From positions 1,770,630 through 1,834,629 of the forward strand of contig OX638316.1 in the NCBI GenBank assembly GCA_951812525.1: a DNA stretch of 64,000 nucleotides, in the 5' to 3' direction. The notes beneath the pieces are model-generated. The model saw nothing but the letters and a program-made list of their open reading frames with translations, was not told the DNA's origin and made no database searches. Origin of the DNA: an uncultured Poribacteria bacterium. Its GTDB lineage: Bacteria; Poribacteria; WGA-4E; WGA-3G. Both the position numbers and the translations under genes were made by a program. Of this stretch, positions 1,797 to 43,537 are shown piece after piece. How positions within the stretch are numbered: position 1 is the first letter of the stretch; each line of letters opens with the position of its first letter.

Positions 1797-1924
1797 CAGA
1801 CATCTCCAGGGAATTATTTTCACCAAACGGATTTATACGATATGCACATTTCGGTCGGTAGATACGCTTAAAAAACGCGACGAAATACCCTATCCATTCA
1901 ATATATAATGACGCGAGTTAGGCG

Positions 1925-12910: not shown

Positions 12911-14233
12911 TTAGTCCGACACTTCCTCTTTCGCCTGGCGCACCTGATGGAGATATTCTTGCGCTTGTTTGTTATCGGGTGCCAATTTAAGAGCCTTCTG
13001 AAAAACGGTTTCAGCCGCGTTATAGTCTTTCATGGCGAGATGGATTGCGCCGAGCATATTGAGACTTTGCGCGTTTGGCATCGTTTCAGTTGCCTTTTGG
13101 GCGAGTTGGCGGGCGGTTTCCAGGTGGTGTTCAGATTCTTTTGGCTGGTCATACTGTTGATACAATAAACCGAGCATCAGATGCCCTTTGATATATTCCG
13201 ATTCAACCCCGATAGCGGTTTTGTAAACGGTAACTGCCTTTTTGCCCTGTTGATTCTGAATATAGAGTGCGGCGATTTTATCGTAAGCCTCCATCAAAGA
13301 GGCATCTATAAGAAGAGCGGTTTTATACTGCTCAAACGCTCTTTCCGGTTGGTTGTGTTCTGCATAAATGTTTGCAAGTGCTATATAGCCATCAGGGTCG
13401 TCCGGTTTTTCACGAATTTTCTGCTCTGCCGCATCAAGAGCATCTTGAAGTTCCCGAATCTGCTGTGCGATTTCGCGTTGGTGCCTTGCTGATTCAACTT
13501 GTCCGAGCCGGAAATAGCAACGCGCGAGATTATGGTGAAGTGCGAGATCCCCCGTACGATGCGGCAGTACACGCTCATATTCGCTAATTGCTTCCGCATA
13601 CTTGCCCATCTGCTGATAGGTAAAGCCGAGTTCAAATCTTGCTGTTGTGTGATTGGTGTCAATTGCCAACGCCTGCTGAAAGTCAGTGACTGCCCTATCA
13701 TACTCGCCCTGTTTTGTGTAGATAATTCCACGATTGCAGTATATCTCTGGCGATTGCAGCTTCAGTTCAAGTGCCTGTGTATACGTTTTCAGCGCAAGGT
13801 CAAACTTGAACTGTGCGTGATAGATGTTTCCCAATCCAAGATATGCTTGAGGGAACCTCGAATCTAATTCGATTGCTTTTTCATAGTGTGCAATCGACTC
13901 CGTAGTTTCCCCACGCTCTGCAAGCAGGATTCCCATCACAGCGTGTGCTTGCAAGATATTGTCGTTGAGTGCCAATGCTTTTTGGAGGGCATTGATAGCG
14001 TCATCTGTCCGTCCCATTTTCCAGTAGACCATACCGATGCCGCTGTGTGCCTCGGAGAAGTTAGCGTCTAACTGTAGCACCTTTTGGTATTCACGCAGTG
14101 CCTCATCGAAGCGTTGCTGGTTAGCAAACGTCCCCGCCCGACGATAGTGCCGTAGCAACGGATCAACGCGTTGGGCATTCACCGCGAAACAGAAGCAGAA
14201 CAGAATGAGAACTACGAGGGACAGATATCTCAT
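12911..14233 (-). CDS. Secreted tetratricopeptide repeat protein
   Basis: 440 residues. Residues 1-20 are a signal peptide (LSLVVLILFCFCFAVNA). About eleven TPR units follow, for example AHSGIGMVYWKMGRTDDAINALQ and ALDIDTNHTTARFELGF-like text, with a short charged helix near residue 235-255 splitting two TPR arrays. TPR arrays are protein-binding scaffolds, here outside the cytoplasm. Its ATG overlaps the stop of the CBM9-like gene (ATGA at 14230-14233), so the two are translated together. This suggests that it assists assembly or binding of the two CBM9-like proteins or of the CRTAC1-like protein downstream (inference). Confidence 0.85.
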   Translation of the reverse strand: MRYLSLVVLILFCFCFAVNAQRVDPLLRHYRRAGTFANQQRFDEALREYQKVLQLDANFSEAHSGIGMVYWKMGRTDDAINALQKALALNDNILQAHAVMGILLAERGETTESIAHYEKAIELDSRFPQAYLGLGNIYHAQFKFDLALKTYTQALELKLQSPEIYCNRGIIYTKQGEYDRAVTDFQQALAIDTNHTTARFELGFTYQQMGKYAEAISEYERVLPHRTGDLALHHNLARCYFRLGQVESARHQREIAQQIRELQDALDAAEQKIREKPDDPDGYIALANIYAEHNQPERAFEQYKTALLIDASLMEAYDKIAALYIQNQQGKKAVTVYKTAIGVESEYIKGHLMLGLLYQQYDQPKESEHHLETARQLAQKATETMPNAQSLNMLGAIHLAMKDYNAAETVFQKALKLAPDNKQAQEYLHQVRQAKEEVSD

Positions 14234-15186
14234 TGATGGGCTTGCTTGATTTTACCCCACGTTACTGGGAGTTTACCACTCGGATCGACAGCAGCGGTTG
14301 TGCTGAAAATTATATCGCCCAACACGCCAGGGCTGTTATCATTTTCAAAGTCACTTGACCACGCCATCGCACCACCTTGTGGGGGATCATAGATCGGATC
14401 AACATCCATTACGGTAATATCAAATCCGATGACATCTCCGTCATCCGGTTTAATCCGTTTTCCGTAGTAGGCATCGAAGATTTTCCAGGGCATGCGGATC
14501 TCAAAAGTGTAGCTGGCTCCGTCATTTTTCGCCATAATGTGTCCCTTTGCTGGACTGTTGAGTTCCGGGTCCTCGACTTGACCGTCTCTCTGAAATGCGG
14601 CTCCGGCACCGCGTGTGGTCAGTGGGACAATCTCCCAGAAGGTGTCATCCGGTTCGTAAGTGCTAATCGCGGCAATAGCAGCTGTATCGAACTTCTTATT
14701 TCCGAACTTTTTGGTAGGTGCATCGTGTTTGGTATCAAAGCAGAACCAATACCCATCAAAATTCCTGCTATCTCGTGCTGCGAAAGGCGGTCCTAATTCG
14801 TTAATGTCATCGTCAACGACCTCAAAAGCAAAATAAAGATTGTCATCATCCCACATCGTCATCCATGTAACATGGAGATCATCGTCGCCATCAATCTGTC
14901 CCCGGCTCACGCGATCCCCACCTTTATTTGTGTTGCGACCGGCACCGCCGCCTGCAACAATTTGATACCAATCCTGCGGTTTTGTGGTAATTTCTTGTGC
15001 AAGGCTTCTAACAATCTCCCATTCTATAAGATCACCATCAATAGTAATGGCCCCTCTCCTCGGAGCACTGATTGCCTCACCACCCGAGTGTGTAAACCCA
15101 TCTGTCGTGAGGAAGATTAGCCAGATTGAAGTGAAGGTTACAACAGGCAAAATGAGCATTTTTAGGGCGTTAGTTGCGAATTTCAT
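14230..15186 (-). CDS. Secreted CBM9/DOMON-like domain protein with conserved WG-IK tail
   Basis: 318 residues from the ATG at 15186; an in-frame ATG at 15201 is possible and neither has a strong ribosome site. A signal anchor (LKMLILPVVTFTSIWLIFL) is followed by one PF06452-type carbohydrate-binding family 9 fold (AITIDGDLIEWE, LHVTWMTMWDDDNLYFAFEV, FEIRMPWKIFD, FENDNSPGVLGD). In known members this fold binds sugars or sits in ethylbenzene-dehydrogenase-like proteins. The C-terminus AVDPSGKLPVTWGKIK matches five other proteins in the window. Paralogue of the next gene upstream (15322-16338). Overlaps the TPR gene by four bases. Confidence 0.8.
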   Translation of the reverse strand: MKFATNALKMLILPVVTFTSIWLIFLTTDGFTHSGGEAISAPRRGAITIDGDLIEWEIVRSLAQEITTKPQDWYQIVAGGGAGRNTNKGGDRVSRGQIDGDDDLHVTWMTMWDDDNLYFAFEVVDDDINELGPPFAARDSRNFDGYWFCFDTKHDAPTKKFGNKKFDTAAIAAISTYEPDDTFWEIVPLTTRGAGAAFQRDGQVEDPELNSPAKGHIMAKNDGASYTFEIRMPWKIFDAYYGKRIKPDDGDVIGFDITVMDVDPIYDPPQGGAMAWSSDFENDNSPGVLGDIIFSTTAAVDPSGKLPVTWGKIKQAHQ

Positions 15187-15254
15187 GAAGTCAACCCCCA
15201 TTTTATTGTTGAAATTTTTGGGAAAGTTTATGCCAAATTACCTTGAGGTGTTAA

Positions 15255-15321: not shown

Positions 15322-16338
15322 CTACTTGTAACCGCGTTTGATTTTACCCCACGTTGACGGCAATTTGTCTTTCGGATCGACAGACGTTGCACTGCCGACA
15401 ACCTCGTTGGAAATCATAAGATCGCCGAGCACACCGGGGCTGTTGTCGTTTTCAAAATCACTCGACCAAGCGACTGCGCCGCCAAGGGGTGCGGCGTAAG
15501 AACCTGGGGCATCACCGTCGATATCTGTGATTGTAATGTCGAATCCGATGACTAAGCCGTCCGTAGGAGCGAGAGCTGCGCCGAAAAACGGCTCAAAAAC
15601 CGACCAAGGGAGACGTATCTCAGCGGAATATCCGCTGCCGGTTTTCTGACCTGCGACGTGTCCGTTACCCGGTTCGCCCAACTCTGGGTCCACGGCAGCA
15701 TTCAACGATTGTGACCACGCCCCGCTTGTACCTGCGGTCGTTACAGGCGCAAAAATCCAATAGTGGTCGTCCGCTTCATAGGTGCTGTTATCGGCGACGT
15801 GTTTCGTCTCAAATTCATGGTGCGGAAACTCAAATACAGGCGCATCGTGCTTGGTATCGAATATCAACCATATCCCGTCAATATCCCCATCCCTAGTGGC
15901 GAGGTCATTGGCATACGCATGGTGGGTGTCGTCGGTAATATCGAACGCAAAATAGAGATAGTCGTCATCCCATAACGTTGCCCAGCGCGCCAGGAAATCG
16001 TCGTCACCATCGAATTTGCCACGACTGACTCGGAGTCCGCCATCATTGGTGTCGCTGCCAGCACCGCCCCCGGGAATAATCTGATACCAGTCTTGGTTAT
16101 GTTTCGGATCGCGAGGGTCTACGACAATGTCTTGCAGCGGTGAAGCTTCTTGAAATATTGCGTCCCATTCTGCCTCATCGAGCATTCCATCAATTGTAAT
16201 AGGTGTTTCGGTTTTTTTACTTGTTACCTCGCCGCCTGAGTGTGCCATCACCGACAGTGTAGAGAGTGTGAATAAAACACAGCAGGCGATAGTGAACAGA
16301 TTGAATTTTACACACAGCAATTTTTTTGGAATAAACAT
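15322..16338 (-). CDS. Secreted CBM9/DOMON-like domain protein, second paralogue
   Basis: 338 residues from the ATG at 16338, which has AGGAG seven bases upstream; a longer frame to 16437 has no such signal. A signal peptide (FTIACCVLFTLSTLSVMA) is followed by a PF06452-type domain: ITIDGMLDEAEWD, ARWATLWDDDYLYFAFDI, EIRLPWSVFEPF, FENDNSPGVLGDLM. It parallels the downstream gene through the whole domain, including the HSGGE after the signal peptide, so a local duplication made the pair. It ends SVDPKDKLPSTWGKIK, the shared tail. A role in binding extracellular polysaccharide is likely but not shown. Confidence 0.8.
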   Translation of the reverse strand: MFIPKKLLCVKFNLFTIACCVLFTLSTLSVMAHSGGEVTSKKTETPITIDGMLDEAEWDAIFQEASPLQDIVVDPRDPKHNQDWYQIIPGGGAGSDTNDGGLRVSRGKFDGDDDFLARWATLWDDDYLYFAFDITDDTHHAYANDLATRDGDIDGIWLIFDTKHDAPVFEFPHHEFETKHVADNSTYEADDHYWIFAPVTTAGTSGAWSQSLNAAVDPELGEPGNGHVAGQKTGSGYSAEIRLPWSVFEPFFGAALAPTDGLVIGFDITITDIDGDAPGSYAAPLGGAVAWSSDFENDNSPGVLGDLMISNEVVGSATSVDPKDKLPSTWGKIKRGYK

Positions 16339-16558
16339 TGTGAATCTCCTATTGGTAACCTTCGCTGTAAAACGCAAAGATGTTTCTGTTTTTTTAGAAA
16401 CGTGCTTGGAATCTGGGAACCCAAGCAATAGAGACATTGGTTGGACTAATGAACTGTATGTGCATTGCTTGTCATTGTGGGGGGTTCCCTATCCACAATT
16501 GGCGGATGGACCTATAAATAAACTTTATCGGAAGTAAAAATAAAAGTCAAGTAAATAA

Positions 16559-21184: not shown

Positions 21185-22219
21185 CTACTTTCTCTCTTTT
21201 AATGAAGTTTGTGTCTTCACTTTTGCCCAAGTCGTGGTGCGTGAATGGGGTTGTGGTGATACAGACAAAACGTACGCAGGATTAAACCAATCTCCGCCAA
21301 AATTCGATTTAATATGCGTCAACTGGGTCCGAGCACCACCGTTCACGTCGACTTTGAAGATTTGTAGATGTCCGTTAATTTCCTGTTTGTAAAGGACTTC
21401 TTCTCCATTGGGTGATAATGCCGGAACCATTGCCGTAGGACCAGCTTCATCAGCGAGCTGCTGGAGCCCAGTGCCGTCTCGGTTGATAATATAGATTGTT
21501 AGCTTGTCCATCCATACGTCGGGCACACGTTCACCAGCTGCGAGAAGTGGCAGCGGGTTGTTATTCCAAGAAAAGGCGAGTTTGTCGCCCGCAGCAGACC
21601 AAGAAGGAAAAGATTGCCCATCGAGAGCTTTACCTGGCAGAAGTTGTTTTTGCGTGCCTGTGTGGATGTTGACAAGTGCGAGTCGGCCCCCAATCGGACC
21701 GCCTACTGAACAGGCGATTTCTGTCCCATCGGGTGACCATGCCGGATACATAGCATTCACGAGAGGTGCTTCTTTCTGTTTACCTAAGGTCGCAATGTAG
21801 ATGATGGATAAGCGAAGGTCGGGAGTTTTGTGCATGTGAGCAATCTGTTTACCATCGGGTGCCCACGTCGGATAGTATCTATAAACGACCTTCTTGAAGA
21901 CGCGTCGAACATCAGAACCATCTGGGCTCATCAGGTAAAGGTCTCGAACGCCATGACGATCGGAGACGAATAGAATCTGATCACCGGTCGGAGACCAAAC
22001 GGCTTGAAGATCCTCTGCGCGATGTTGTGTAAGGTTGACTTGTTCAGAGCCGTCAGGATTCATAATGTAGACTTCGCGATTGCCGTCGCGTGTGGAGGTA
22101 AACAGGATTTTGGGAGTCGTCGGTGCCTTTGCGAAAAGTGGAGAAATGTTTGCACACAGCAATGTTATGCTAAATGTTATGAAGGTAAAAATGGCGACAG
22201 TTTTCCAATCGAAATACAA
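21185..22219 (-). CDS. Exported TolB-like PD40 propeller protein with WG-K tail
   Basis: 344 residues. A signal peptide (FTFITFSITLLCANISPLFA) is followed by PD40 repeats: ILFTSTRDGNREVYIMNPDGSEQVNLTQ, then AVWSPTGDQILFVSDRHG and similar blades, making a six-bladed TolB-type propeller without the TolB N-terminal domain. The C-terminus SVSPQPHSRTTTWAKVK is a variant of the tail shared with five other proteins. The start is a TTG at 22219 with no strong ribosome site; no better in-frame start is seen. Likely periplasmic; partner unknown. Confidence 0.75.
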   Translation of the reverse strand: MYFDWKTVAIFTFITFSITLLCANISPLFAKAPTTPKILFTSTRDGNREVYIMNPDGSEQVNLTQHRAEDLQAVWSPTGDQILFVSDRHGVRDLYLMSPDGSDVRRVFKKVVYRYYPTWAPDGKQIAHMHKTPDLRLSIIYIATLGKQKEAPLVNAMYPAWSPDGTEIACSVGGPIGGRLALVNIHTGTQKQLLPGKALDGQSFPSWSAAGDKLAFSWNNNPLPLLAAGERVPDVWMDKLTIYIINRDGTGLQQLADEAGPTAMVPALSPNGEEVLYKQEINGHLQIFKVDVNGGARTQLTHIKSNFGGDWFNPAYVLSVSPQPHSRTTTWAKVKTQTSLKERK

Positions 22220-28023: not shown

Positions 28024-30936
28024 CTATTTATGGGATAGATTGTAATCTTTTTCCTTAAGCGATATATGAAAGATTCCTTGGTGTTGGGTAGCGATGTAAA
28101 GTCTATCACCATCAACGACAAGTGAGCGAACTTTACCCGGAACGCTTGGGGAAATCTGCTCCCATTTGCCGCGTGTATCTGAGCGGTAAACCCCGGTATC
28201 GCCAGCACCATAAACGGTTCTGCCGTCTACAGCAAATCTGTTTATGATGACTTTATCGGTGAGTGAGCGCCAGTATGCCCCGGTCTCTGAAGATAGAACG
28301 CCGGTATCTGTTGCGACAAAAACCGTTGAACCTACAAAGACGATCTCGTTGAAACGGGTGAAAGGTCGTGGTAGGTTGGGTGTAACGTCTCTCCAACTAG
28401 TGCCGCTATCAAGCGACTGAAATAACTTTCCGTCGCGTTTCCCAACGTAGACGGTTTCCACTGAGACTGCCAACTTGAAACCATTTTTTAAGTCGGCATC
28501 AGATTGTTCAACGGGGTCTACCAATCCGGTGTCTATCCATTCTGGGGTACCAAGTTTCCACTTGAAAAGCCGCTGCTGGTATTCTGCGTAGAACGTCTTC
28601 CCACCGACGGCAAATGCTCCAGCTCTTACACGGTCTCCGCGACCTGACGCTTGTTGAACATCTAAAGCGGGGACATCTTGGATTCGTGTGAGCACATTGC
28701 CATCGGGGGATAAGCGGTATATCCACGGCTCGTCTCCTTCTTCTGAGATTGCATAAAGAATGTTGTCAGCTATCGCCAACTTGGAATCACCATAGAAGCC
28801 GTCGTCACGGAAATTCTCCGGTGCCGGACTGAAATCAATCTGAACGGTTTCCCACGAGTTTCCGCCGTCCGTTGATTGGACCAGGTCTTGATTGGGCGTA
28901 TGGGCATAAAGTCTGTTGTTATACGCAAACAGATCAAGTATGTCAGTTCCTATCATTCCATTCATAAACAGATGCCAAGATTTACCGGCATCAATCGTCC
29001 GATAAACACCTGTGTATGCTGCTCTGTAAAATGTATTCTCGCTTACCACAACAGATGGATAAGGACTGAGCGTGAACGCATGCATGTCATATCCGAGATT
29101 TGACCAAGTCTGTCCGGCATCTGTGGAACGGAATCGACTTAGAGCTTGTGCAAAGATAGATTGCCCCGCAACTAACAAACTGATGCCCGTTGGGACTTTT
29201 AGAGAGTGAGATTCATCTGCGGGAGTTATGTCAGCCCACGACGCTCCCAAATCAGTCGAACGGAAAATCCTGTTCATACTTGGACTGTCGTCATTCATCA
29301 TCTGTCGTATATCCATTGGCTTTGACCAGATCTGTTGAAATTCAAGAAAATTAGGACCTGTTGCAACATAGAGACTGCCTTCAGAGAATTCTAAGGAATA
29401 GATGGATCCGGGTACATCGACAAGCAATCGCTCCCAAACCCCTGAATTGAGACGGTAGAGTCCATTGTCCGTGCCAGCGAATAACGTGTCTTGGATCCCA
29501 GCCACTACAGAAAGCGTTCTGTCTGTCAACCCGTTGTTTAAAGGTTTCCACTGTTTGCCAGCATCTGTGGAGTGGAAAAAGCCGTTATTTTGCAGGGCAA
29601 GGTAGATTGTAGTATATGGTGCCTCACCCGTGAGAAAAAGTCCAATAGCATATCCATGAGGTCGTGTACAAAGTGGATCCCACGTTTCGCCGTTATCGAT
29701 TGAAGTAAAGATGTTATCATTAGAGAGAATATAAAGTATGTCTTGATGTTCTGCCATAGGGATCCGCTTAGGCACTCGGAGTTCTCTGGTGGGTATACCG
29801 CTATCTATGAAGGTCCATGCGGGTGTGTTCGGCTTTAATTTGTAGATACCTGTCGGTGAAGAGGTGTAGAGCGTTCCGTTGGATGCGGCAAATATACCGA
29901 ATGCGGGACCCCCTTGCGGTCCGGTTGACTGCGTCCACTGTGCCGAAGAAAAAATGCGTGAATTTTTCGATGCGTTGGATGCTGAGACCCGCTCAGAAAC
30001 TTCTGCGCCTGCACCTGTACTTTTACTGGTAGTTGCACGGCCTGGTTGATTTCGGACATCCTGTTTTTCATCAATATTAAGGATGATAGGAACATCAACG
30101 ATTTCAATGGTAGGTTCGGATGTTGCCTCAAAACTATAAGGTCTCTGAAATCGGGTGAGATGCCGATTGCTGACACCGAGTATGAATAATAGCATAACGG
30201 CAGCAGCACCGAAAGCAACCCATGGCAGCAGCGGTTTTGTAGTAGAAGCGGCTGTGGGTTTCATGTCAGGAACCTGGCGCATGATATTCTGGGTGAGGTT
30301 AGCGGGGACTTGAATGCTACCGAGTGTTTCGCTAATCAAGATTTCTTCTTCGCCTTGTAAACGCTGTCGTGCCCGATGCAGCCGACTCTGTATCGTGTTC
30401 GCTGATACCCCAAGGAATCTACCAATCTCTCGTGTTGTCATCTCACCGAGATAATAGAGTGTGACGACAGTGCGTTCACTTTCTGGAAGTTTTTTAAGAA
30501 GTCTTTCGACGATTGCGAAACGCCGTTCGGTTGCTTCCGTCTCGCGCTGATCGGAGACATAACGCTCATAAGCCAACTTATTAAGTTCTTTCACAGATGT
30601 ACCCTCCAGTGACTGCACCGCAGATTTATGCTTCCGCATCCAATTCAGACAGAGTCGGTTCGCAATGACGTAGAGCCAACCAGCAAATAGGGTGGGATTT
30701 CTCAGGGTTGAAAGTTTTTCGTATGCACGGAGGAAGGTGTCTTGTGTAATCTCTTCGGCATAGTGAAAATCGCCGATCTTCCGCCAAACGAGTGCGTGGA
30801 TGCTTTTTTGATACTTTTCAACTAAGATGCCGAATGCCTCGTCATCGCCTTCCAAGATATCGTAAATAAGTTGAACATCTTCTTCTATCATCGGATGCTC
30901 CATTGATTGGTTGTCAGTCAGGTGGTTATCAGCCAT
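28024..30936 (-). CDS. ECF sigma factor fused through a membrane helix to a Ycf48/BNR-like propeller
   Basis: 970 residues. Residues about 20-200 are sigma regions 2 and 4 (KYQKSIHALVWRKIGDFHYA; TREIGRFLGVSANTIQSRLHRAR). A single transmembrane helix spans 236-257 (LLPWVAFGAAAVMLLFILGV). After a linker, about 330-970 form a propeller of repeated SIDNGETWDPL, STDAGKQWKPL, STDGGNSWETV and SLDSGTSWRDV Asp-box blades, as in Ycf48 or sialidase/BNR folds. Topology predicts sigma inside and propeller outside, a one-protein transmembrane signalling device. Planctomycete ECF01-Gob factors with WD40 tails are the nearest known parallel. The start is uncertain among residues 1, 12 and 16. The frame is intact, so it is unlikely to be an assembly join. 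Confidence 0.85.
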   Translation of the reverse strand: MADNHLTDNQSMEHPMIEEDVQLIYDILEGDDEAFGILVEKYQKSIHALVWRKIGDFHYAEEITQDTFLRAYEKLSTLRNPTLFAGWLYVIANRLCLNWMRKHKSAVQSLEGTSVKELNKLAYERYVSDQRETEATERRFAIVERLLKKLPESERTVVTLYYLGEMTTREIGRFLGVSANTIQSRLHRARQRLQGEEEILISETLGSIQVPANLTQNIMRQVPDMKPTAASTTKPLLPWVAFGAAAVMLLFILGVSNRHLTRFQRPYSFEATSEPTIEIVDVPIILNIDEKQDVRNQPGRATTSKSTGAGAEVSERVSASNASKNSRIFSSAQWTQSTGPQGGPAFGIFAASNGTLYTSSPTGIYKLKPNTPAWTFIDSGIPTRELRVPKRIPMAEHQDILYILSNDNIFTSIDNGETWDPLCTRPHGYAIGLFLTGEAPYTTIYLALQNNGFFHSTDAGKQWKPLNNGLTDRTLSVVAGIQDTLFAGTDNGLYRLNSGVWERLLVDVPGSIYSLEFSEGSLYVATGPNFLEFQQIWSKPMDIRQMMNDDSPSMNRIFRSTDLGASWADITPADESHSLKVPTGISLLVAGQSIFAQALSRFRSTDAGQTWSNLGYDMHAFTLSPYPSVVVSENTFYRAAYTGVYRTIDAGKSWHLFMNGMIGTDILDLFAYNNRLYAHTPNQDLVQSTDGGNSWETVQIDFSPAPENFRDDGFYGDSKLAIADNILYAISEEGDEPWIYRLSPDGNVLTRIQDVPALDVQQASGRGDRVRAGAFAVGGKTFYAEYQQRLFKWKLGTPEWIDTGLVDPVEQSDADLKNGFKLAVSVETVYVGKRDGKLFQSLDSGTSWRDVTPNLPRPFTRFNEIVFVGSTVFVATDTGVLSSETGAYWRSLTDKVIINRFAVDGRTVYGAGDTGVYRSDTRGKWEQISPSVPGKVRSLVVDGDRLYIATQHQGIFHISLKEKDYNLSHK

Positions 30937-30986: not shown

Positions 30987-31466
30987 TCAATTACTGGCTT
31001 GCTTGAGTCTACCCCACAGTGTCTTTTGCTTTTCTGTGCTCGGTGAGACAGGAAAAAAGTTCTCCGGAACCCACTCAGGCGTCGCACCCTGAGATAATCC
31101 ATTTATTATCTCAACTGACGCACCGTTATCCACAGCATTTACGACATAGATGGCACCATCACCGAAGACTTCATCCACGGGAAGTCTCTCACCGGGTCCC
31201 GGCCACCGCACCACCTCCTTGAACGAATAAGCGATCCACGTTCCATCGGGTGACCACGTGTGTACAGTCCCTTTTTTTCCGTTACTGATTCTGAGTTTTT
31301 GTAGGTTCTTATCAGTGCTATCTATGAAGTAGAGCTCAGCTTTCCCTTCATGCTCAGAAATAAAAGAGATTGCCCGAATCATATCAGCTTCTGCATATAT
31401 GACGAGAAAACTACTACTGAGTAATAACGTGATCCATAACAGGGCATGTGTGAATCTTCTTTTCAT
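30987..31466 (-). CDS. Short exported PD40-like protein with WG-LK tail
   Basis: 159 residues from the ATG at 31466; the longer frame to 31505 is less likely because the signal peptide (FTHALLWITLLLSSSFLVIYA) begins here. The N-terminus (FISEHEGKAELYFIDST) and C-terminus (WSPDGTWIAYSFKEVVRW, GERLPVDEVFGDGAIYVV, SVSPSTEK-like PVSPSTEKQKTLWGRLKQ) match both ends of the 347-residue protein at 42251, but the central blades are absent. So it is an internally deleted paralogue with about two blades left, too few for a propeller on its own. It ends with the conserved tail and has the upstream box at 31577. Confidence 0.7.
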   Translation of the reverse strand: MKRRFTHALLWITLLLSSSFLVIYAEADMIRAISFISEHEGKAELYFIDSTDKNLQKLRISNGKKGTVHTWSPDGTWIAYSFKEVVRWPGPGERLPVDEVFGDGAIYVVNAVDNGASVEIINGLSQGATPEWVPENFFPVSPSTEKQKTLWGRLKQASN

Positions 31467-31576
31467 TATTAATTTCCTCCTAAAGCGTTGTATCCACAGG
31501 AACAAGTAGGATCAACGGAAATACAGAAAATAAAGAATTTAATAAAAAAGACGTACTGATATATGTTCCCGCTTGT

Positions 31577-31613
31577 TAAAGACACATTTTTACTCCGGAT
31601 GCTTGCATAAAAT
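31577..31613 (-). promoter_or_regulatory. Conserved upstream box, copy a
   Basis: On the - strand it begins TTTTATGCAAGCATCC and ends AAAAATGTGTCTTTAA. It lies about 110 bases before the short PD40 gene. Related copies are at 31791, 41172 and 43371. Confidence 0.6.
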
Positions 31614-31790
31614 GAATAAATTTAATTTTTTAGTGATGATCCGGGCTGGACAGATTTGAGGTTGAAAAGCAAGAAGTAGAAAAAAGGGTGTCTTTTTGAG
31701 AGGACTGTGTAGGTTCCACCGGTTAGATGGCAAAGTGCATTCCGCGCCTATCAATGTTTCTTTCAGAGAGGCTGAGTCAATTTATTTTAC

Positions 31791-31923: not shown

Positions 31924-32727
31924 ATGAAGTTAGCGGCGATTGGAATTACAATTTTGCTCCTTACCCTTCCGGCATCGGCGGAAACATTTCTAGCGGATTT
32001 TGACAACGGAAACTTGGACGAATGGCAAGAATTTAATATGCGCGATGCGCCCGACGGGACTTGGAAAATCATTAACGATGAATTGCATGGCGTAAGCCCA
32101 GATGCAGCAATACGTCTACTCACAATCGGTGATGAAACGTGGAGCGATTACACCATTGAATTCGATGTCAAACTTCTCAGAAAACGTGGTCGCGGAAATA
32201 TTACTGTTGCTGCTCGGATTACCGGAGATTGGGCAGCATGGTGCATGATCGGTGATGACCCATTTGGCGAGAATATTTCTATGGTTGCATATTCGGCAGG
32301 TAATTTTCGAGATCCTTCACCGTTTATTATTTTCGCTTCAGAACCGCATCAAGCTTTGAATATGCAGGAATGGACGAAACTTAAGTTGGGTGTTGAGGGA
32401 AATACGCTAAATTTTTGGATTAATGGAAACCACATTCTTGGACCTGTCCGACTTCCGAACCGTCAAACTTTCAAAAACTTTGACGTTGCCAGAAAGCAGC
32501 ATCTCGAAGAACATCATGCAGATGACGAGAATTGGCAATTTCGACCGATGCAATTAGGTAGGTTCCAAGACCTTCTAACAGGTGGAGTGGGTATAGGTCT
32601 CTCTAATCACACGGCAAGATTCGACAATATTGTCATTACGGGTGAAAGCATACCCGGCATACATGGCTTGTCGGTAGATCCCAGATCAAAAGTAGCGACG
32701 CTGTGGGGGCATCTGAAAAGTCCTTAG
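31924..32727 (+). CDS. Secreted LamG/3-keto-disaccharide hydrolase-like sandwich protein with WG-LK tail
   Basis: 267 residues. A signal peptide (LAAIGITILLLTLPASA) is followed by one concanavalin-like sandwich: FLADFDNGNLDEWQEF, WKIINDELHG, DYTIEFDVKLL, WTKLKLGVEGNTLNFWING, TARFDNIVITG. This is the fold of LamG and DUF1080 proteins, which bind or cleave sugars; no catalytic residues can be named. The C-terminus SVDPRSKVATLWGHLK is the shared tail. AAAGGAG lies seven bases before the ATG and the conserved box (31791-31825) lies about 100 bases upstream. It precedes the S9 peptidase gene by 61 bases and may share its transcript. Confidence 0.75.
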   Translation: MKLAAIGITILLLTLPASAETFLADFDNGNLDEWQEFNMRDAPDGTWKIINDELHGVSPDAAIRLLTIGDETWSDYTIEFDVKLLRKRGRGNITVAARITGDWAAWCMIGDDPFGENISMVAYSAGNFRDPSPFIIFASEPHQALNMQEWTKLKLGVEGNTLNFWINGNHILGPVRLPNRQTFKNFDVARKQHLEEHHADDENWQFRPMQLGRFQDLLTGGVGIGLSNHTARFDNIVITGESIPGIHGLSVDPRSKVATLWGHLKSP

Positions 32728-35335: not shown

Positions 35336-38143
35336 CTATTTCAAAATCACCATTTTCCGTAGGAAGGACAGCTGATCCGCTTGGAGTTGGTAGAAATAAA
35401 TACCGCTTGCAACACGCTCACCAACATTATTTCTTCCGTTCCAATAGGCGGCACGGTTCTTGTTGGTGTAGTAGCCTTCCTGCTGATGTCCGAGGTTTAA
35501 ACGCCGGACGACGGTGCCGCGTGTGTCATAGATAGTAATATGCACGTCACTCGGATTGGCTAACTGATATGGCATCCACGTCTCGGGGTTGAAGGGGTTA
35601 GGATAGTTGGCAAACAACTGTGTCTCTTTGGGAATCAGTGATACTAAGAGACGTTGAAGGTTGGCAATGCCGTGTTGGAAGGCAACGGATCCGTCATTTT
35701 CAAGCTCCGCGTGTTCTATCCACGCCTGTACCGTCGCAGCGTCGAAACCCTGTATAGCGTTCATGGCAAGCATAGAAGGCGCAGCAGTCGTGGTATCACC
35801 GAAATGTTGTGCGACGAGAACGAGGTCAAGGATATTGACGACGCCATCGCCGTTGACATCCGGGACATCTTTGCCGAAGGCATTGGCGACGGCAACGAGG
35901 TCAAGCACATTTACCTGTCCATCTCTATTGACATCCCAAGCGGGTATAAGCTGAACGGTGAGCACCTGTTGTGTTGCTGGTGTGTTTGGGTTGTTTGCGT
36001 CATCCGCTGCAACATTCTCGTTGACATTAAGAATAACGGTGCCGCTGGTCGTCGGTGTAATCATTGCTGTGTAGGTCATTGCATCTTCACTTGCTGTCCA
36101 TGCGGTAATTGTCGCCGTTGCTGTACCGCTGATGGAAACATCCGTTTGCCTGAAATCAGAGACGGGTTCTGTGAAGCTAATGACGGCATCAAATGCTCCG
36201 TCTTGTGTATCTGAAGACACTGCAATACTGACCTCTGGACGTGTTCTGTCAGGGGGCACGACCTCTTTGAGATAGATTTCACCATCTAAGTCTGGGAGGG
36301 TGTGCCAACGTTTGTTTTCCACGCCGCTTGCCACACCCGACACCTTCTCAGGGAGTTGTATCATCCGTGGTTTTCCGCTGCGGTTATAGACTGCCCACCC
36401 GTTGGTAAACTCACGGATAAACAGACCTTCAATTGAGATGTTTTTAGGAGTTATGTAGAGTTGGGCTTTCTCACCGACAGGACGACCAAGCGGCGCATCC
36501 CAGAAATCATACCAATAATGTTGGTGTGTATGATCACCCGGTTCGCCACGCTCGTGTTCAGCGGAGTGCCCCTCCCATATCTCATAGAGATGCGTATGAT
36601 TTGAAGAGGCGATGCCACTGACAAAGTTGACATAACCATTTGAATGTGTAAGGCTCAGTGTAGTAAAGGCACGCATCCAACGTTGATTTGTGGGACTATC
36701 AAGAGGTACCCTTTTATCTGCCCAACCTTCCAAGCAATTGATTTGCGGTTCACGAAAGTTCTGCTCTGACCATAACAACGTGCTTTCCATGTTAGCGAGC
36801 CCTGCGTGATGGCGACCATCTATGGTCTCCATAAAAGTGCCATTTACATAGGGTGCAGAACGCGGAATCTTGGTGTAATTTGTGTTGACGATAATCAGAA
36901 AATCGTTCCTGCTGACTCCCTCGCGGATACGCCGAAGCAATGAAATCGCTGCTTTCCCGACATCACCTGCATAATAACGGATAAAAGGTTCTTCCTGCCA
37001 TTCATCTCCGTGCCATTCATCCCGCCACCAATCCAAGAAAATGCCATCATAGAGTCCGCATTTGGCAATCTCAATCGCTTGTCCAACAAAGTAGTCTTGC
37101 ACTTCCGGTAATGTGAAGTCAATAAGAAATGCCCCCCATCCAACATCTTCGATTCTGTTTCCTAATTCATCCCTCAACCAAAAGGGGGAATCCTCTGGAT
37201 ATACACTCGGATGTGCAGCGTAATAGTCTAACGTAACAAGAAAAATCATATTTGGATTCCGAGCAAGCATCGCATCCTGCTGTTTCTTTGCGAATTCAAA
37301 GTCTCCAAAGATTTTCACACCCTCAGGGGTCGCACGCCACCGCAATCCATATCTCAGCCCAGTGAAGCGTAAGTCGTGGTATGCTAAGCGGTCATCCCAT
37401 GATAGACTTGGTAAGTTGATAATATTTGCCCATGCTGAGAAAATTGAAGGATAGTCACGATCCTCAATTCGCTCAGAAACTGGTATACTCTCTAAGTTAC
37501 AAGATTCATCGTACACGAATTCTGTCAACTTCGATGTTGGGATAGCAGAAACATCGCCAGCTAAATTGCCATTAATTATGAGCACTTCAAGGTTCACCAA
37601 TCCCGCAAGCGGTGAGAAATCTTCAATCTGATTGTTGCTAAGTGAAAGGTCTCTTAGATTCACCAACCCCGCAAGGGGCGAAACATCGACGATCTGGTTG
37701 CTCCACAAACCCAGCACCTCAAGGCTTACAAGCCCAGCAAGCGGTGAAACATCTGAAATGGCGTTGCCTCCCAAATCCAAGAATGTGAGTTTCGTCAAAC
37801 TCGCAAGCGGGCGAAGGTCCTGGATACGATTTTGTGCAACAATAAGAACTTCAAGGTTTATAGCATACTCTAAACCTGTGAGATCGCTGATCTTTTCAGT
37901 TATCTGAAGTCTCAATATATCTAGCACAGCCAATTGCAGCATATCCGCTTTCGTCAAGGGTATATTTGTATCTATTTCAAGTTCCTGACGAACAGCCTGC
38001 CGGAGATTCGGGTCCGGCATCCAGTTTTCTTCTTGAGCGAAAGTTGCTACAGAAAAGCAAAAAAGTATGATAGCGACGATGCAAAGTTCCCGTCCGAGTT
38101 TAAGTCGAGGTTTGAGGTTGATGAAATAGTGTTGATTTCGCAT
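35336..38143 (-). CDS. Secreted LRR, glycosidase-like, Ig-like, dockerin-like protein with FlgD-like C-terminal domain
   Basis: 935 residues from the ATG at 38143; the frame to 38206 reads through a dockerin remnant. A signal peptide is followed by LRRs (about 65-235: LTKLTFLDLGGNAISDVSPL), then a TIM-barrel region resembling hypothetical glycosyl hydrolases of the GHL15 type (CGLYDGIFLDWWRDEW, with Asp as candidate acid; FTTLSLTHSNGYVNF). Next are an Ig-like sandwich (VSIAVSSDTQDGAF), a dockerin-like pair (DVNRDGQVNVLDL, DVNGDGVVNILDL) and the FlgD/T9SS-like end (NYPNPFNPETWMPYQ, ASGIYFYQLQADQ). Its LRR and barrel parts are paralogous to the adjacent sigma fusion. Probably a surface glycan-recognising or degrading protein. 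Confidence 0.8.
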   Translation of the reverse strand: MRNQHYFINLKPRLKLGRELCIVAIILFCFSVATFAQEENWMPDPNLRQAVRQELEIDTNIPLTKADMLQLAVLDILRLQITEKISDLTGLEYAINLEVLIVAQNRIQDLRPLASLTKLTFLDLGGNAISDVSPLAGLVSLEVLGLWSNQIVDVSPLAGLVNLRDLSLSNNQIEDFSPLAGLVNLEVLIINGNLAGDVSAIPTSKLTEFVYDESCNLESIPVSERIEDRDYPSIFSAWANIINLPSLSWDDRLAYHDLRFTGLRYGLRWRATPEGVKIFGDFEFAKKQQDAMLARNPNMIFLVTLDYYAAHPSVYPEDSPFWLRDELGNRIEDVGWGAFLIDFTLPEVQDYFVGQAIEIAKCGLYDGIFLDWWRDEWHGDEWQEEPFIRYYAGDVGKAAISLLRRIREGVSRNDFLIIVNTNYTKIPRSAPYVNGTFMETIDGRHHAGLANMESTLLWSEQNFREPQINCLEGWADKRVPLDSPTNQRWMRAFTTLSLTHSNGYVNFVSGIASSNHTHLYEIWEGHSAEHERGEPGDHTHQHYWYDFWDAPLGRPVGEKAQLYITPKNISIEGLFIREFTNGWAVYNRSGKPRMIQLPEKVSGVASGVENKRWHTLPDLDGEIYLKEVVPPDRTRPEVSIAVSSDTQDGAFDAVISFTEPVSDFRQTDVSISGTATATITAWTASEDAMTYTAMITPTTSGTVILNVNENVAADDANNPNTPATQQVLTVQLIPAWDVNRDGQVNVLDLVAVANAFGKDVPDVNGDGVVNILDLVLVAQHFGDTTTAAPSMLAMNAIQGFDAATVQAWIEHAELENDGSVAFQHGIANLQRLLVSLIPKETQLFANYPNPFNPETWMPYQLANPSDVHITIYDTRGTVVRRLNLGHQQEGYYTNKNRAAYWNGRNNVGERVASGIYFYQLQADQLSFLRKMVILK
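37632..37907. repeat. 276-bp repeat within LRR coding region, copy 1
   Basis: Nearly the same sequence as 39634-39909 in the same orientation, spanning LRRs of both neighbouring genes. Translated on the antisense strand the two differ at only 7 of 91 positions, far less than the flanking domains, which points to recent duplication or gene conversion. Confidence 0.75.
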
Positions 38144-38164
38144 ATTATCCTCCAAATACGTTTG

Positions 38165-38226
38165 AGATGATGAGACGATAAAGAACATTGACACTGCTAT
38201 CGCCATTGAGATCGGCAGATGCGTCT
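38165..38226 (-). pseudogene. In-frame dockerin-like remnant after the sigma-LRR fusion stop
   Basis: Directly after the TAG of the sigma-LRR-glycosidase gene, the same frame continues SADLNGDSSVNVLY, the first calcium loop of a dockerin-like pair. A nonsense change, or loss of sequence, seems to have cut this end from the protein. Confidence 0.65.
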
Positions 38227-38228
38227 AG

Positions 38229-40988
38229 CTATTTCAGGTAGATTTCACCGTCTAAATCATGAAGGTGATGTGTTGTGCTTCTGACGCCGCTATGGATACC
38301 TGTCGCGGGTTCTGGTAACTGGATTTCTCTCGTCTTTCCGCTGCGATTGTATACTGCCCAACCGTTGGTGAACTCACGGATGAAGAGCCCTTCGATAGAG
38401 ACGCCTTCCTTATTATTGTAGAGTTGCCCTTTTTCACCGATAGGTTTGCCGAGCGGGGCATCCCAGAAAGGGTGCCAGTGAACAACAGGTTCACCACCGT
38501 TCGGGTTAATAGATGAGGAAAATAAGCGAAATTTATATTCCACATAGCCATCTGAATGTGTTAAACTCAGCGTCGTAAAAATACGCATCCACTGCTGATT
38601 TCGTGGGGAATCTGGTGGTTCTCCCTCAATCCCTAATCCAGTCAAACCATTGATGTGTGGTTCTCGGAGATGGTTTTCTGACCAAATTACGGCTTCTTCA
38701 ATACTTGGAAGACTCTCCCGACTATAGCCGAGAGTGCGATACTGTTTATCGACATCTGTCATTTCACTAAGCGGTATTTCAAAGGTAGGAAATGTTTCCC
38801 TGTACGTGCCGTTAATATATTCTGCCCATCTCGGGATCTTATCTTTGTTAGCGTTTACCATTATCAAGAAATCGTCATCTACCGTGGAGCGAATGCCTTG
38901 CAAGATTTTATCACGTGCGACGTGTTCTGCTTCAAGTGTTCGATACTCACGAAGCCTTCGCCCTTCACTCCAATGATCAAGGAAGATTCCGTCAAACAAT
39001 CCGCACGATGCGATAGCCTTCGCTTGGTTGACCGCCCATTTTTGCGTTTCAGGCAATGTAAAATCCAACAACGCCTCACCCCAACTATCTACAATACGAT
39101 TGCCATTTTCGTCCCGAAGCCAAAGGTCTTGTAGAATACCATCTTCAGGATATCTATAGGCAGGTAGACCACTGAAATATACAACCGGAACAAGGAGTAT
39201 CGCATTGGGGTTAAACGCCAAAAGCGCATCTCGCCGCTCTTTAGCTCTTTGGAAATCGCCAATCAGATGAACGCCAGCCTTGGTAGTTTTGAACTTAAGA
39301 TCCAGTGTTTCAGGACAACAAAAATAAAGATCGAAGTAAGCTATAGGTTCATCTGCTGATAACCACGGAAGCTTCGGTAGTATAGGTGGGCGGTTTCTGA
39401 CGGAAGACCATGATCCGAAGATGGATGGATATTCGCGGACTTCAACCCGGGGTATAACGGGGGGTCTGGGCAATTCACATTCTGAAGCGGTACTGCCCGG
39501 ATTACCTTCAGAATGCAGAACCTCTATATTGGTGAGTTTTGTGAGTAGTGAAAGGTCAACGATCCCATTGTTACGTACATTCAATTCCCCCAAACTTGTC
39601 AAGGCAACAAGCGATAAAATGTCGGTAATCTGATTGTTGCTAAGTGAAAGGTCTCTTAGGTTCACCAACCCCGCAAGGGGCGAAACATCGACGATCTGGT
39701 TGCTCCACAAACCCAGCACCTCAAGGATTACAAGCCCAGCAAGCGGTGAAACATCTGAAATGGCGTTGCCTCCCAAATCTAAGAATGTGAGTTTCGTCAA
39801 ACTCGCAAGTGGACGGATGTCTTGGATACGATTTTGTGCAACAATAAGAAGTTCCAAGTTTATGGCATGCTCCAAACCTGTGAGATCGCCGATCTTTTCA
39901 GTTATCTGAAGTTTTACTGTATCTAACGCAACCAGTTGGAGCATATCCGCTTCTGTCAAGGGTATATCGGTATCTACTTCAAGTTCTTGACGAACCGCCT
40001 CTCGCAGTGCAGCATCCGGCATCCAGTGTGTCTCCGAAACTCTAAGTGAATCTTCTTCCGAGGCATTGGGCATTGCATCCCTTTCAGAAGTTTGTAAACC
40101 CGCATTACTGCTTTTACCAGCAGTCGCAGTACGTCCCCCCTGATTTCGCACAGCCGGCTTCGACACAATATCAAGGACGATAGCGGTATCAACAATTTCA
40201 ATGGTAGGTTCAGACGCCGCATCGAAACTATAGGGTCTCTGAAAACGGATGAGGTGTTGATTGCTCACACCCAGCAGCAAGGCAACCAAAATTACGGCTG
40301 TGCCAAAAGCAACCCATGGCAACAACGGTTTCCCAGTTGGAGTCGGTGTGGGTTTGAGACCGGCAACTTGCCGCATGATGTTCTTGGCGAAGTCAGCAGG
40401 GAATTGTACACTACCGAGTATTTCGCTAATCAAGATTTCTTCGTCACCCTGTAATCGTTTCCGTGCTCGATGGAGCCGACTATGGATTGTGTTCACCGAC
40501 ACCCCCAAGAGTTTGCCTATATCCTTTGTTGCCATTTCACCCAGATAATGGAGCGTCACAACTGTGCGTTCACTCTCTGGCAATTTTTCGAGAAGCTTCT
40601 TGACGATTTGATAACGTCGTTTGGTTGCTTCTGTTTCACGTTCATCTGATACATAACGCGCATATGCCGATCTTTCTATGTCTTCCATAGGTGTGGTCTC
40701 CAGCGACTGCATGGTAGATTTTTGCTTTTTCAGCCAATTCATGCAAAGCCGGTTGGCAATGACATAGAGCCATCCAGCAAATAGGTTGGGATTCCTAAGA
40801 GTTGAGAGTTTTTTGTAGACTTGGATGAAAGTGTCTTGTGTAATCTCTTCGGCATAGTGAAAATCACCAATCTTTCGCCAGACAAGCGCATGAATTCCCT
40901 TCTGATACTTTTCCACCAAAACACCAAACGCCGAATCGTCGCCAGATAAAATATCGTGAATCAGTTGAACATCGTTTTCTCTCTCCAC
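38229..40988 (-). CDS. ECF sigma factor fused through a membrane helix to LRRs and a glycosidase-like domain
   Basis: 919 residues. Sigma regions 2 and 4 fill residues 1-190 (KYQKGIHALVWRKIGDFHYA; TKDIGKLLGVSVNTIHSRLHRAR). A transmembrane helix spans 222-243 (LLPWVAFGTAVILVALLLGV). LRRs fill about 320-495, and a GHL15-like barrel about 520-919 (CGLFDGIFLDHWSEG, FTTLSLTHSDGYVEY). Up to residue 260 it closely matches the fusion at 28024; beyond residue 320 it matches the secreted protein at 35336. So it is a chimera of a sigma-TM head and a surface-protein body. Expected topology: sigma inside, LRR-barrel outside. It ends at a TAG after HDLDGEIYLK, with an in-frame dockerin remnant beyond. The conserved box (41172) lies about 185 bases upstream. 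Confidence 0.85.
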   Translation of the reverse strand: MERENDVQLIHDILSGDDSAFGVLVEKYQKGIHALVWRKIGDFHYAEEITQDTFIQVYKKLSTLRNPNLFAGWLYVIANRLCMNWLKKQKSTMQSLETTPMEDIERSAYARYVSDERETEATKRRYQIVKKLLEKLPESERTVVTLHYLGEMATKDIGKLLGVSVNTIHSRLHRARKRLQGDEEILISEILGSVQFPADFAKNIMRQVAGLKPTPTPTGKPLLPWVAFGTAVILVALLLGVSNQHLIRFQRPYSFDAASEPTIEIVDTAIVLDIVSKPAVRNQGGRTATAGKSSNAGLQTSERDAMPNASEEDSLRVSETHWMPDAALREAVRQELEVDTDIPLTEADMLQLVALDTVKLQITEKIGDLTGLEHAINLELLIVAQNRIQDIRPLASLTKLTFLDLGGNAISDVSPLAGLVILEVLGLWSNQIVDVSPLAGLVNLRDLSLSNNQITDILSLVALTSLGELNVRNNGIVDLSLLTKLTNIEVLHSEGNPGSTASECELPRPPVIPRVEVREYPSIFGSWSSVRNRPPILPKLPWLSADEPIAYFDLYFCCPETLDLKFKTTKAGVHLIGDFQRAKERRDALLAFNPNAILLVPVVYFSGLPAYRYPEDGILQDLWLRDENGNRIVDSWGEALLDFTLPETQKWAVNQAKAIASCGLFDGIFLDHWSEGRRLREYRTLEAEHVARDKILQGIRSTVDDDFLIMVNANKDKIPRWAEYINGTYRETFPTFEIPLSEMTDVDKQYRTLGYSRESLPSIEEAVIWSENHLREPHINGLTGLGIEGEPPDSPRNQQWMRIFTTLSLTHSDGYVEYKFRLFSSSINPNGGEPVVHWHPFWDAPLGKPIGEKGQLYNNKEGVSIEGLFIREFTNGWAVYNRSGKTREIQLPEPATGIHSGVRSTTHHLHDLDGEIYLK
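39634..39909. repeat. 276-bp repeat within LRR coding region, copy 2
   Basis: Partner of 37632-37907; see there. It encodes the LRRs of the sigma fusion protein. Confidence 0.75.
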
Positions 40989-41171
40989 GAATCTCCTCCT
41001 AATAAACTGATTCGGGATGTTGCATTCCCCTGTCGTCGTTTGTCCCTTTTCGCACGCGATGATTTATCTAGTGCCTTCGATCAGTCGCATGTCATTGTGC
41101 CTTGGGTTCCATCCGCCGGAAACGGAAACTGGACATGTGGACAAACGCAAACCTTGATGGCATTATATTAT

Positions 41172-41208
41172 TTAAAGACACAATTTTAAGTGGAATGCTT
41201 ACATAATG
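41172..41208 (-). promoter_or_regulatory. Conserved upstream box, copy b
   Basis: On the - strand: ATTATGTAAGCATTCC then TTAAAATTGTGTCTTTAAA. It lies in the gap 40989-41406, which has no gene, and faces the sigma-LRR fusion gene. Confidence 0.6.
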
Positions 41209-41334
41209 TGAAAAAAAATGAAAATCTTTGGATTTTTTGGAAGTTGTTTGGTGGGTATCGGGTTCAGAATGCACGCTAAATCGTCGATTGTTAAAGTGTT
41301 GGCGTATTAGGAATAGCGGCAGATTCTGTTTCCA

Positions 41335-42250: not shown

Positions 42251-43294
42251 TTACCGGTTTGTTTGCTTGAGCCTGCCCCAGAGCGTAGTTTGTTTCTCTG
42301 TACTGGGAGAGACGGAAAAGAATGTTTCTGGCACCCATGCTAGATCCAAACCGAGTGAGAATCCATTCGCCAGCTCAATGGGTTCAGTGGCTTTACCTGT
42401 AGCCTTTACGAGATGGATCGCGCTATCGCCAAAGACTTCATTGATGGGGAGTCTCTCACCGGGTTTCAGCCAGCGGACTATCTTTTTGAAGCCATAGGCG
42501 ATCCACTGTCCATCGGGCGACCATGCTGGCTGACTGGCATCAGCACCTGCTCCTACTCGCGTAAGTTTTCGGAGATTGCTACCATCGGCATCCATAACGT
42601 AGATGTTGATGCCTTGATCTCCAGGATTCCCAGCAGCGTATGCAATCTGTTTGCCATCCGGCGACCATGAGCAGCCCGATAAGTTTCGAGCCCCTTTGAT
42701 TTGTTTCGATCTACCTCCATCAGCAGTCATTCTGTAGAGAAAATGGCGTCCAGGAACGCCTACAGCGTGGTGCCCGCCGCGATAGGAATCATAGACAATC
42801 CATTGGCTGTCTGGCGACCACGCGTGGTTTTGGTTGTCTCCCTTATTTGTCAATCGCCTGAGATTTGAACCATTTACATTGATTCTGTAGATATCCATAT
42901 TCCCCGTCCGATCCGAGACGAAGGCGATCCATTTGCCGTTAGGCGACCACGCAGGCCATAGGTCTCTACTGGGATGGTCTATCAACTTACGGATCTTCTC
43001 GCTTCTGATGTCCATCACGTAGATGTCCGGACTCCCAGCATGATTGGAGTGATATGCGAAAAAACGTCCATCCGGTGACCATGTGGGAGACGCTTTGTTA
43101 TCCGTGTTGGTTTCGATCCTTCGGAGATTCTGCCCTGTGCTATCAATGAGATAGAGATTAGATTTTCCTTCGTGCTTAGAAGTAAAAGAGAGTATCCTAT
43201 CTCTGGCTCCCTCTGCATTTTTAGTCAAAAGACTGATACTTAACAACAACGCAATCCCAAACATCGCATAAATCCGTATGTGTTTTATTGCCAT
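42251..43294 (-). CDS. Exported TolB-like PD40 propeller protein with WG-LK tail
   Basis: 347 residues from the ATG at 43294 (AAGGAGG five bases upstream). A signal peptide (MFGIALLLSISLLTKNAEG) precedes six PD40 blades: FTSKHEGKSNLYLIDSTGQNL, TWSPDGRFFAYHSNHAG, AWSPNGKWIAFVSDRTG, AWSPDSQWIVYDSYRGG, SWSPDGKQIAYAAG, AWSPDGQWIAYGFKK. This is the TolB propeller without its partner domains. It ends SVSPSTEKQTTLWGRLKQ, the tail shared with five proteins. Parent of the shortened copy at 30987. The conserved box (43371-43407) lies about 80 bases upstream. Confidence 0.8.
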   Translation of the reverse strand: MAIKHIRIYAMFGIALLLSISLLTKNAEGARDRILSFTSKHEGKSNLYLIDSTGQNLRRIETNTDNKASPTWSPDGRFFAYHSNHAGSPDIYVMDIRSEKIRKLIDHPSRDLWPAWSPNGKWIAFVSDRTGNMDIYRINVNGSNLRRLTNKGDNQNHAWSPDSQWIVYDSYRGGHHAVGVPGRHFLYRMTADGGRSKQIKGARNLSGCSWSPDGKQIAYAAGNPGDQGINIYVMDADGSNLRKLTRVGAGADASQPAWSPDGQWIAYGFKKIVRWLKPGERLPINEVFGDSAIHLVKATGKATEPIELANGFSLGLDLAWVPETFFSVSPSTEKQTTLWGRLKQTNR

Positions 43295-43370
43295 GAGGTC
43301 CTCCTTGTTCAATTCTACTGGAGAGTAAATAGATGTAAGTCTAAATCAAACCATAATATTATTGTACTAC

Positions 43371-43407
43371 TAAGGACACAATTTTTCGCGGGATGATTGC
43401 ATAAAAT
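43371..43407 (-). promoter_or_regulatory. Conserved upstream box, copy c
   Basis: On the - strand: ATTTTATGCAATCATCC then GAAAAATTGTGTCCTTA, followed 17 bases after TTGTGT by TATTAT, a possible -35/-10 pair. It faces the PD40 gene ending at 42251. Confidence 0.6.
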
Positions 43408-43537
43408 AAAAAATGGTATCTGGATTTTTTAGCAGTTATCCGGTGGATTCGGATTCCGGAGGCAGGATAAATCACTGGTTGGTAGAGTCTGGAAGTTGAT
43501 CCATAGTGGATGTACTGAAAGGTATTTTAAATGGAAA

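Follow-up and report, generated by a model that had tools for sequence, protein, structure and literature searches.

A Poribacteria family of candidate one-protein receptors made of ECF sigma factors and exchanged outer domains

We analysed a 64,000-nucleotide stretch of a Poribacteria genome (the window) and found that the gene at positions 28024 to 30936 joins a complete extracytoplasmic function (ECF) sigma factor, one membrane helix, and a beta-propeller in a single 970-aa protein. It belongs to a family of such fusions whose inner parts are constant and whose outer domains have been exchanged, and many of the genes share one class of ECF-type promoter. The anatomy, the paralogue family, the exchange of outer domains, and the common promoter class can all be read from the sequences themselves; silencing by tethering, a ligand, and proteolytic release are steps that we infer. 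Taken together, we put the probability at about 60 per cent that the protein is a transmembrane receptor with a sigma factor as its output, silenced by tethering, freed by proteolysis, and feeding its own promoter.

The fusion protein and its paralogues

The features of the fusion gene are as follows.

28024 to 30936, minus strand: membrane-anchored fusion of an ECF sigma factor and a twin propeller, 970 aa (Pfam, TIGR02937, AlphaFold, VIA-align)
30625 to 30825, minus strand: sigma region 2, residues 38-104 (Pfam PF04542, Sigma70_r2)
30352 to 30513, minus strand: sigma region 4, residues 142-195, with recognition helix GVSANTIQSRLHRAR (Pfam PF08281/PF04545)
30166 to 30228, minus strand: transmembrane (TM) segment, residues 237-257 (hydropathy; same place in related frames)
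30037 to 30165, minus strand: conserved membrane-proximal stretch, residues 258-300, RFQ.PYSF.A.SEPTIEI..P..L...KP..RNQ.GR (column identity, low pLDDT)
28051 to 29946, minus strand: Asp-box twin beta-propeller ectodomain, residues 331-962 (Pfam, AlphaFold, Foldseek, VIA-align)

The frame runs from 30936 down to 28024 as 970 codons with no interruption, though, judging from the paralogue alignment, translation may begin at Met12 or Met16. The protein scores 94.8 bits against the ECF superfamily model TIGR02937 (cut-off 42.9) and matches SigW at 1e-31 in a profile search. It has regions 2 and 4 only, with region 3 absent, as in other ECF factors; within region 4, Sigma70_r4_2 matches residues 142-193. 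Mean hydropathy over 19-mers peaks at residues 237-255 (2.30), a segment nearly coincident with the helix at 236-257 described in an earlier note on this DNA, and 125 of 135 related frames have a hydrophobic segment at the same place. That note's reading of sigma regions 2 and 4, a single hydrophobic helix, and a propeller in one uninterrupted frame is thus borne out by Pfam, hydropathy, and AlphaFold.

Pfam identifies the C-terminal part as Asp-box/BNR. The AlphaFold model, run with 44 family members, contains the sigma helices and a propeller from about residue 334 to 962, with pLDDT mostly 80-90; residues 253-330 are disordered and the membrane-proximal stretch falls below 40. Among solved structures, the GH74 twin-propeller enzymes match best: VIA-align superposed about 570 residues with Z 22-24 and 16-19 per cent identity. 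The assignment to the twin seven-bladed GH74 type refers to this fold alignment as a whole, and sequence alignment to the solved chains spans single blades only. Foldseek matches include multi-propeller extracellular domains of Bacteroides sensors. Modelled likeness to the GH74 fold in itself says nothing on function.

Thirteen intact sigma-TM fusions are encoded in the same genome (one 5.06-Mb contig), all sharing the sigma part, the TM segment, and a conserved outer stretch of about 40 residues. Seven end in an Asp-box propeller, three in leucine-rich repeats (LRR), one in a Kelch domain, and two in a short beta-type domain; one of the LRR fusions also has GHL15 and lies in the window (38229-40988). 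With thirteen intact paralogues keeping it, and the hydrophobic segment in place in 125 of 135 related frames, the architecture is far above chance.

A query built on the TM and juxtamembrane residues found fourteen matches in this genome. Seven further genomes from the genus have between 2 and 56, sister-family genomes of the same order mostly have one to three, and the searches in other families of the class gave none. In public genomes, all seventy-four named loci with close relatives among the matches listed come from Candidatus Poribacteria. A phage origin for the family was considered and dropped, as viral contigs gave nothing beyond a 29 per cent match to region 4. Separately, the locus L004 (2647832-2650018 of the same genome) is a decayed copy without the sigma part, and the stretch upstream of it resembles a neighbouring WD40 gene read out of frame.

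Averaged by column, identity across 102 full-length fusions is highest in sigma regions 2 and 4 (0.83-0.84), with 0.71 in the TM segment. In the same set, which covers all ectodomain classes, residues 259-300 reach 0.76, compared with 0.44 in the linker that follows. The Q.PYS core of the membrane-proximal stretch survives in the sister families. Because the stretch is conserved under every outer domain yet predicted to be disordered, as a linear site would be, it is a candidate protease or partner site.

The outer domains (heads) fall into nine classes: Asp-box (48), M16 (15), Kelch (14), LRR (12, with or without GHL15), short beta (3), and two each of WD40, Reg_prop, helical, and TrxL, the last being a working name for a class with no Pfam match. 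On the sigma tree, Asp-box heads form the background, and parsimony requires at least fourteen head changes where the least possible number is eight, ruling out one clade per ectodomain class. Kelch heads need at least two changes on supported branches, and one is nested among Asp-box relatives. Every sister-family fusion long enough for its outer part to be read has an Asp-box head, so this is likely the ancestral type.

A shared promoter and its probable reader

The earlier note had proposed comparing the promoters of co-regulated genes. An ECF-type element is common to fusion genes and to genes for exported proteins, and its presence before the fusion genes lends the note's interpretation additional support. 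Within the genus the promoter has the form TTATGCA-N21-GTCTTTAA. Upstream of the fusion genes, a poly-T tract is followed by TTATGCA[C/A] and then, at a near-fixed distance, by GTC[T/A]TTAA; the -10 contains GTC. A two-block matrix scored above 20 in 44 of 99 nonredundant fusion upstreams, compared with 0 of 495 shuffles, 0 of 99 reverse complements, and 1.8 per cent of random segments. About half of the fusion upstreams have no site directly in front; some of these genes lie in operons, and others may be differently regulated.

We then searched with a profile of forty-five sites. These were drawn in part from fusion upstreams and included four sites in the window and several fusion sites of the same genome, so matches there are not independent, whereas sites before exported-protein genes elsewhere are. 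The genome has thirty-three sites at or above about 20 bits, among them sites before nine family sigma genes and before the operons of two more. Of the non-sigma first genes behind sites, 20/22 have an N-terminal hydrophobic segment; as this is also true of 22/39 window genes, the excess of exported genes is real but moderate. Most of these non-sigma products are exported proteins, among them Kelch, LRR, laminin-G, C-type lectin, FG-GAP, CotH, metalloprotease-like, redoxin, and TolB-like types.

Two other ECF sigma genes also lie behind the promoter (sites 163246 and 3852015), hinting at a cascade. Three family sigma factors (L016, L023, and L024) lack a TM segment, have other C-terminal tails, and carry the same promoter upstream.

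The profile placed six sites in the window, one of them near its left edge. The following five, and the genes around them, are relevant here.

582 to 1826, minus strand: related ECF sigma factor (L023), no TM segment, weak HTH-like C-terminal matches below Pfam cut-offs
1902 to 1948, minus strand: ECF-type promoter of sigma gene 582-1826, 24.9 bits
30987 to 31505, minus strand: short TolB-like exported protein, first gene of a putative operon, about 50 nt from the fusion gene
31573 to 31620, minus strand: ECF-type promoter of the operon of 30987-31505 and the fusion gene, 34.6 bits
31781 to 31827, plus strand: divergent ECF-type promoter upstream of 31924-32727, 37.2 bits
31924 to 32727, plus strand: exported 3-keto-disaccharide-hydrolase/LamG-like protein, putative regulon member
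35336 to 38206, minus strand: exported LRR-GHL15-dockerin protein, directly downstream of fusion 38229-40988 after a 22-nt gap
38229 to 40988, minus strand: second sigma-TM fusion, LRR and GHL15 ectodomain (Pfam, family alignment)
41169 to 41217, minus strand: ECF-type promoter of the second fusion, 41.2 bits
42251 to 43312, minus strand: exported TolB-like protein, putative regulon member
43368 to 43413, minus strand: ECF-type promoter of 42251-43312, 29.2 bits

No terminator was found between the 30987-31505 gene and the fusion gene, and a scan for housekeeping promoters near the fusion gene stayed below what shuffled sequence would lead one to expect. The TolB-like protein of 30987-31505 looks like a shortened form of the 353-aa one at 42251-43312 that lacks the central part of the repeat region. 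Searching the window alone for the exact consensus TTATGCA-N21-GTCTTTAA with up to three mismatches returned chance-level matches only; true sites use a spacer of 20 or deviate in the hexamers, and a profile is therefore needed.

The family's own sigma domains probably recognize this promoter class, which would make the fusion genes autoregulated. Within the genus, the number of sites follows the number of fusions (Spearman 0.86, n = 8, P = 0.007), falling to seven sites in a genome with only two fusions, and the other genera have a single site of the genus type between them. The sister families have a different element, GATNATY-N11-TGCRTCATNATA, with a different -35 and a similar -10. It has eight matches at up to one mismatch in nineteen genomes (none for the reversed control), of which six precede the fusion gene itself by 59-123 nt. 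The recognition helix of region 4 differs between the same lineages (GVSVNTIxSRLHRAR against GTSRGAILNRLYRAR). That the -35 and the recognition helix differ together argues for self-recognition, as one single contrast between lineages.

Another ECF factor might instead read the promoter class, with the fusions as mere targets whose own sigma domains serve other promoters. The occurrence of the element before the two other ECF genes (163246 and 3852015) and before the soluble members L016, L023, and L024 is in keeping with such a reader. We nonetheless regard it as distinctly unlikely, given that sites dwindle with fusions in the genus, that the sister-family sites stand almost only before the fusion gene, and that -35 and recognition helix change together.

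Membrane orientation and the mode of signalling

Charge distribution says little on which way the protein crosses the membrane. Lysines and arginines within 15 residues of the TM segment average 1.8 on the N-terminal side and 1.9 on the C-terminal side (102 proteins), and the positive-inside rule therefore does not favour an inner N-terminus with an outer C-terminus. The homologues of the ectodomains are more informative, since those with N-terminal signals are exported proteins. A lipoprotein-like protein of the same genome shares 71 per cent identity with a relative's TrxL-class head, Kelch heads share 46 per cent with an exported Kelch protein, and LRR heads are 33-52 per cent identical to exported homologues with N-terminal signals. 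In the window, the exported protein of 35336-38206, which has a signal peptide, shares 54 per cent identity, over 628 aa, with the outer part of the adjacent fusion (38229-40988). Four Kelch fusions even carry a C-terminal tail typical of exported proteins. For the family, then, the outer domain very probably lies outside the cell, in agreement with the extracytoplasmic C-terminal part proposed earlier. The propeller of 28024-30936 itself has a distant exported homologue in the window, a stand-alone Ycf48-like propeller (43712-46657) with about twelve repeat stretches and an N-terminal lipoprotein-like signal. At 22 per cent identity to the ectodomain, it leaves the outside location of this particular propeller to be argued by analogy with the family.

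In the mechanism that we favour, the sigma domain (residues 1 to about 195) is connected, through a short linker and a single membrane helix, to what would be a sensor outside the cell, a twin propeller resembling those of GH74 and of hybrid two-component systems. While held at the membrane, the sigma domain would most likely be barred from RNA polymerase or from its promoters. A signal received by the outer domain might expose the conserved membrane-proximal stretch, allowing a site-1-type cleavage there and then a site-2 cleavage in the membrane helix that frees the sigma domain. The freed sigma factor would transcribe from TTATGCA-N21-GTCTTTAA promoters, both those of the fusion genes (positive feedback) and those of genes for exported surface proteins.

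Pfam detects no anti-sigma domain in the fusion, which supports the anatomy of a one-protein signalling chain as first suggested. As no such domain fits between region 4 and the TM segment, tethering is the simplest means of silencing and cleavage the simplest means of activation. Proteolytic release is plausible. The genome has a gene for a site-2-type protease, which the earlier note suggested looking for, but 14/14 control genomes have one as well, and the presence of so nearly universal a protease proves little. We identified no site-1 protease.

The same receptor could work without proteolysis, its sigma domain being active in the membrane or switched by conformation or dimerization in the manner of CadC/ToxR, and the membrane-proximal stretch serving as a coupling or dimer element. 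The conservation of the TM segment and its flanking residues (0.71 and 0.76) would fit a coupling element, there is no anti-sigma domain needing destruction, and having a site-2 protease does not single out the genomes that carry the family. Against this, the membrane-proximal stretch is predicted to be disordered, and a sigma factor must accompany polymerase through initiation, which a tether would presumably hamper. Among the membrane-fused ECF factors that have been studied, release by proteolysis has also been shown for IutY and proposed for SCO4117 (PMC8999054, PMC5826349). We consider this account unlikely, although it is the strongest competitor to release by cleavage. A far more radical proposal is that the sigma part is a relic, now merely anchoring a protein that acts at the surface as an adhesin or enzyme. 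The outer domains do resemble secreted adhesins and enzymes, and a decayed copy (L004) exists. However, nothing in the family is better conserved than sigma regions 2 and 4 (0.83-0.84), which also score far above the ECF cut-off, and an anchor needs neither; we consider a relic highly improbable.

Comparison with known systems

C-terminal regulatory extensions have been described in ECF factors before, and a few ECF factors with a TM segment are known as well. The membrane-fused sigma factors known so far come from a few groups; they are usually not numerous and mostly include an anti-sigma part. The Bacteroides hybrid two-component sensors BT4663 and BT4673 likewise join an extracytoplasmic multi-propeller to a cytoplasmic output in one chain, the output being a histidine kinase and response regulator and not a sigma factor.

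We tested defining features of four systems (ECF52, IutY, ECF57, and RsgI), and the 970-aa fusion lacks those tested for each. ECF52 also combines an ECF sigma factor, a TM segment, and an outer ligand-type domain in one protein, and positive autoregulation and proteolytic release have been proposed for its member SCO4117 of Streptomyces coelicolor (PMC5826349). Proteins of this group, found in Actinobacteria only, have a zinc-finger anti-sigma domain before the TM segment, a proline-rich stretch, and a carbohydrate-binding module. The Poribacteria fusions differ in having no zinc finger, variable outer domains, and dozens of copies per genome. In the 970-aa protein, the gap between region 4 and the TM segment is about 40 residues, with no Pfam match to a zinc-finger anti-sigma domain and no cysteine in residues 196-233; Pfam likewise finds an Asp-box propeller in place of a carbohydrate-binding module. 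IutY of Pseudomonas putida, a member of ECF243, is similar in that an ECF sigma factor is fused to a membrane-spanning C-terminal part, and its release by proteases was demonstrated (PMC8999054). That part is a membrane-bound FecR-type anti-sigma domain, whereas the 970-aa fusion has no Pfam match to FecR or STN.

ECF57 (formerly ECF01-Gob) of the Planctomycetes has a protein-interaction extension and two conserved cysteines that link sigma2 and sigma4 (PMC8999054). It resembles the fusion in pairing an ECF sigma factor with a repeat-rich C-terminal extension, including WD40 repeats, that is partly beta-propeller. The comparison with this group made in the earlier note holds as an analogy only. 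The 970-aa fusion has a membrane segment, an exported-type outer domain, and an Asp-box twin propeller with no Pfam match to WD40 at E 0.01 (two of its relatives do carry WD40 heads), and the family alignment has one invariant cysteine column, not the two of ECF57.

The closest logic is that of RsgI/SigI, in which an N-terminal inside part and one TM segment are followed by divergent outer sensors. In Clostridium thermocellum these sensors include CBM, GH10, PA14, and peptidase-like domains on several paralogues, with signalling by stepwise proteolysis (PMC12203970). RsgI is a transmembrane anti-sigma factor with a separate sigma factor, while the N-terminus of the Poribacteria fusion is the sigma factor itself, tethered. 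Copy number, head exchange, the absence of an anti-sigma part, and the shared promoter set the family apart from known fused ECF factors. A literature search, mostly without subscription papers and the 2021 ECF reclassification, found no description of it and no paper joining Poribacteria with extracytoplasmic function; sigma factors are absent from the main text of a single-cell genome paper on Poribacteria repeat proteins.

A broader reading, which we hold tentatively and at somewhat less than even odds, is that Poribacteria have built a receptor repertoire from sigma factors, with dozens per genome, exchanged heads, and one promoter class driving a self-reinforcing surface programme. The promoter would then yield more receptors together with secreted proteins bearing the same heads, so that many inputs feed one programme. 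Such a family would be a large sigma-based signalling system of uncultured bacteria associated with sponges. Its sensors would be interchangeable, and its readable promoter gives Poribacteria a first predicted surface regulon. It would also offer a clean test of silencing by tethering alone, and the two lineages, with their different -35 elements and recognition helices, present a natural specificity swap.

Two further observations concern gene arrangement and protein ends. In three relatives' genomes, sigma-TM fusion genes adjoin one another in runs of about nine to thirteen within 30-45 kb (G005 C1:1528156-1572596, with about eleven within 45 kb; G001 C16:48072-87731; G018 C1:4393976-4424150). 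The tail carried by the four Kelch sigma fusions, V.P..KL.TTWG.IK, is also found on at least twenty-two otherwise varied proteins, most of which bear a signal, and resembles a motif for sorting or anchoring. Its carriers in the window are the products of 14230-15201, 15322-16437, 21185-22219, 30987-31505, 31924-32727, and 42251-43312, and it recurs at other loci of the genome.
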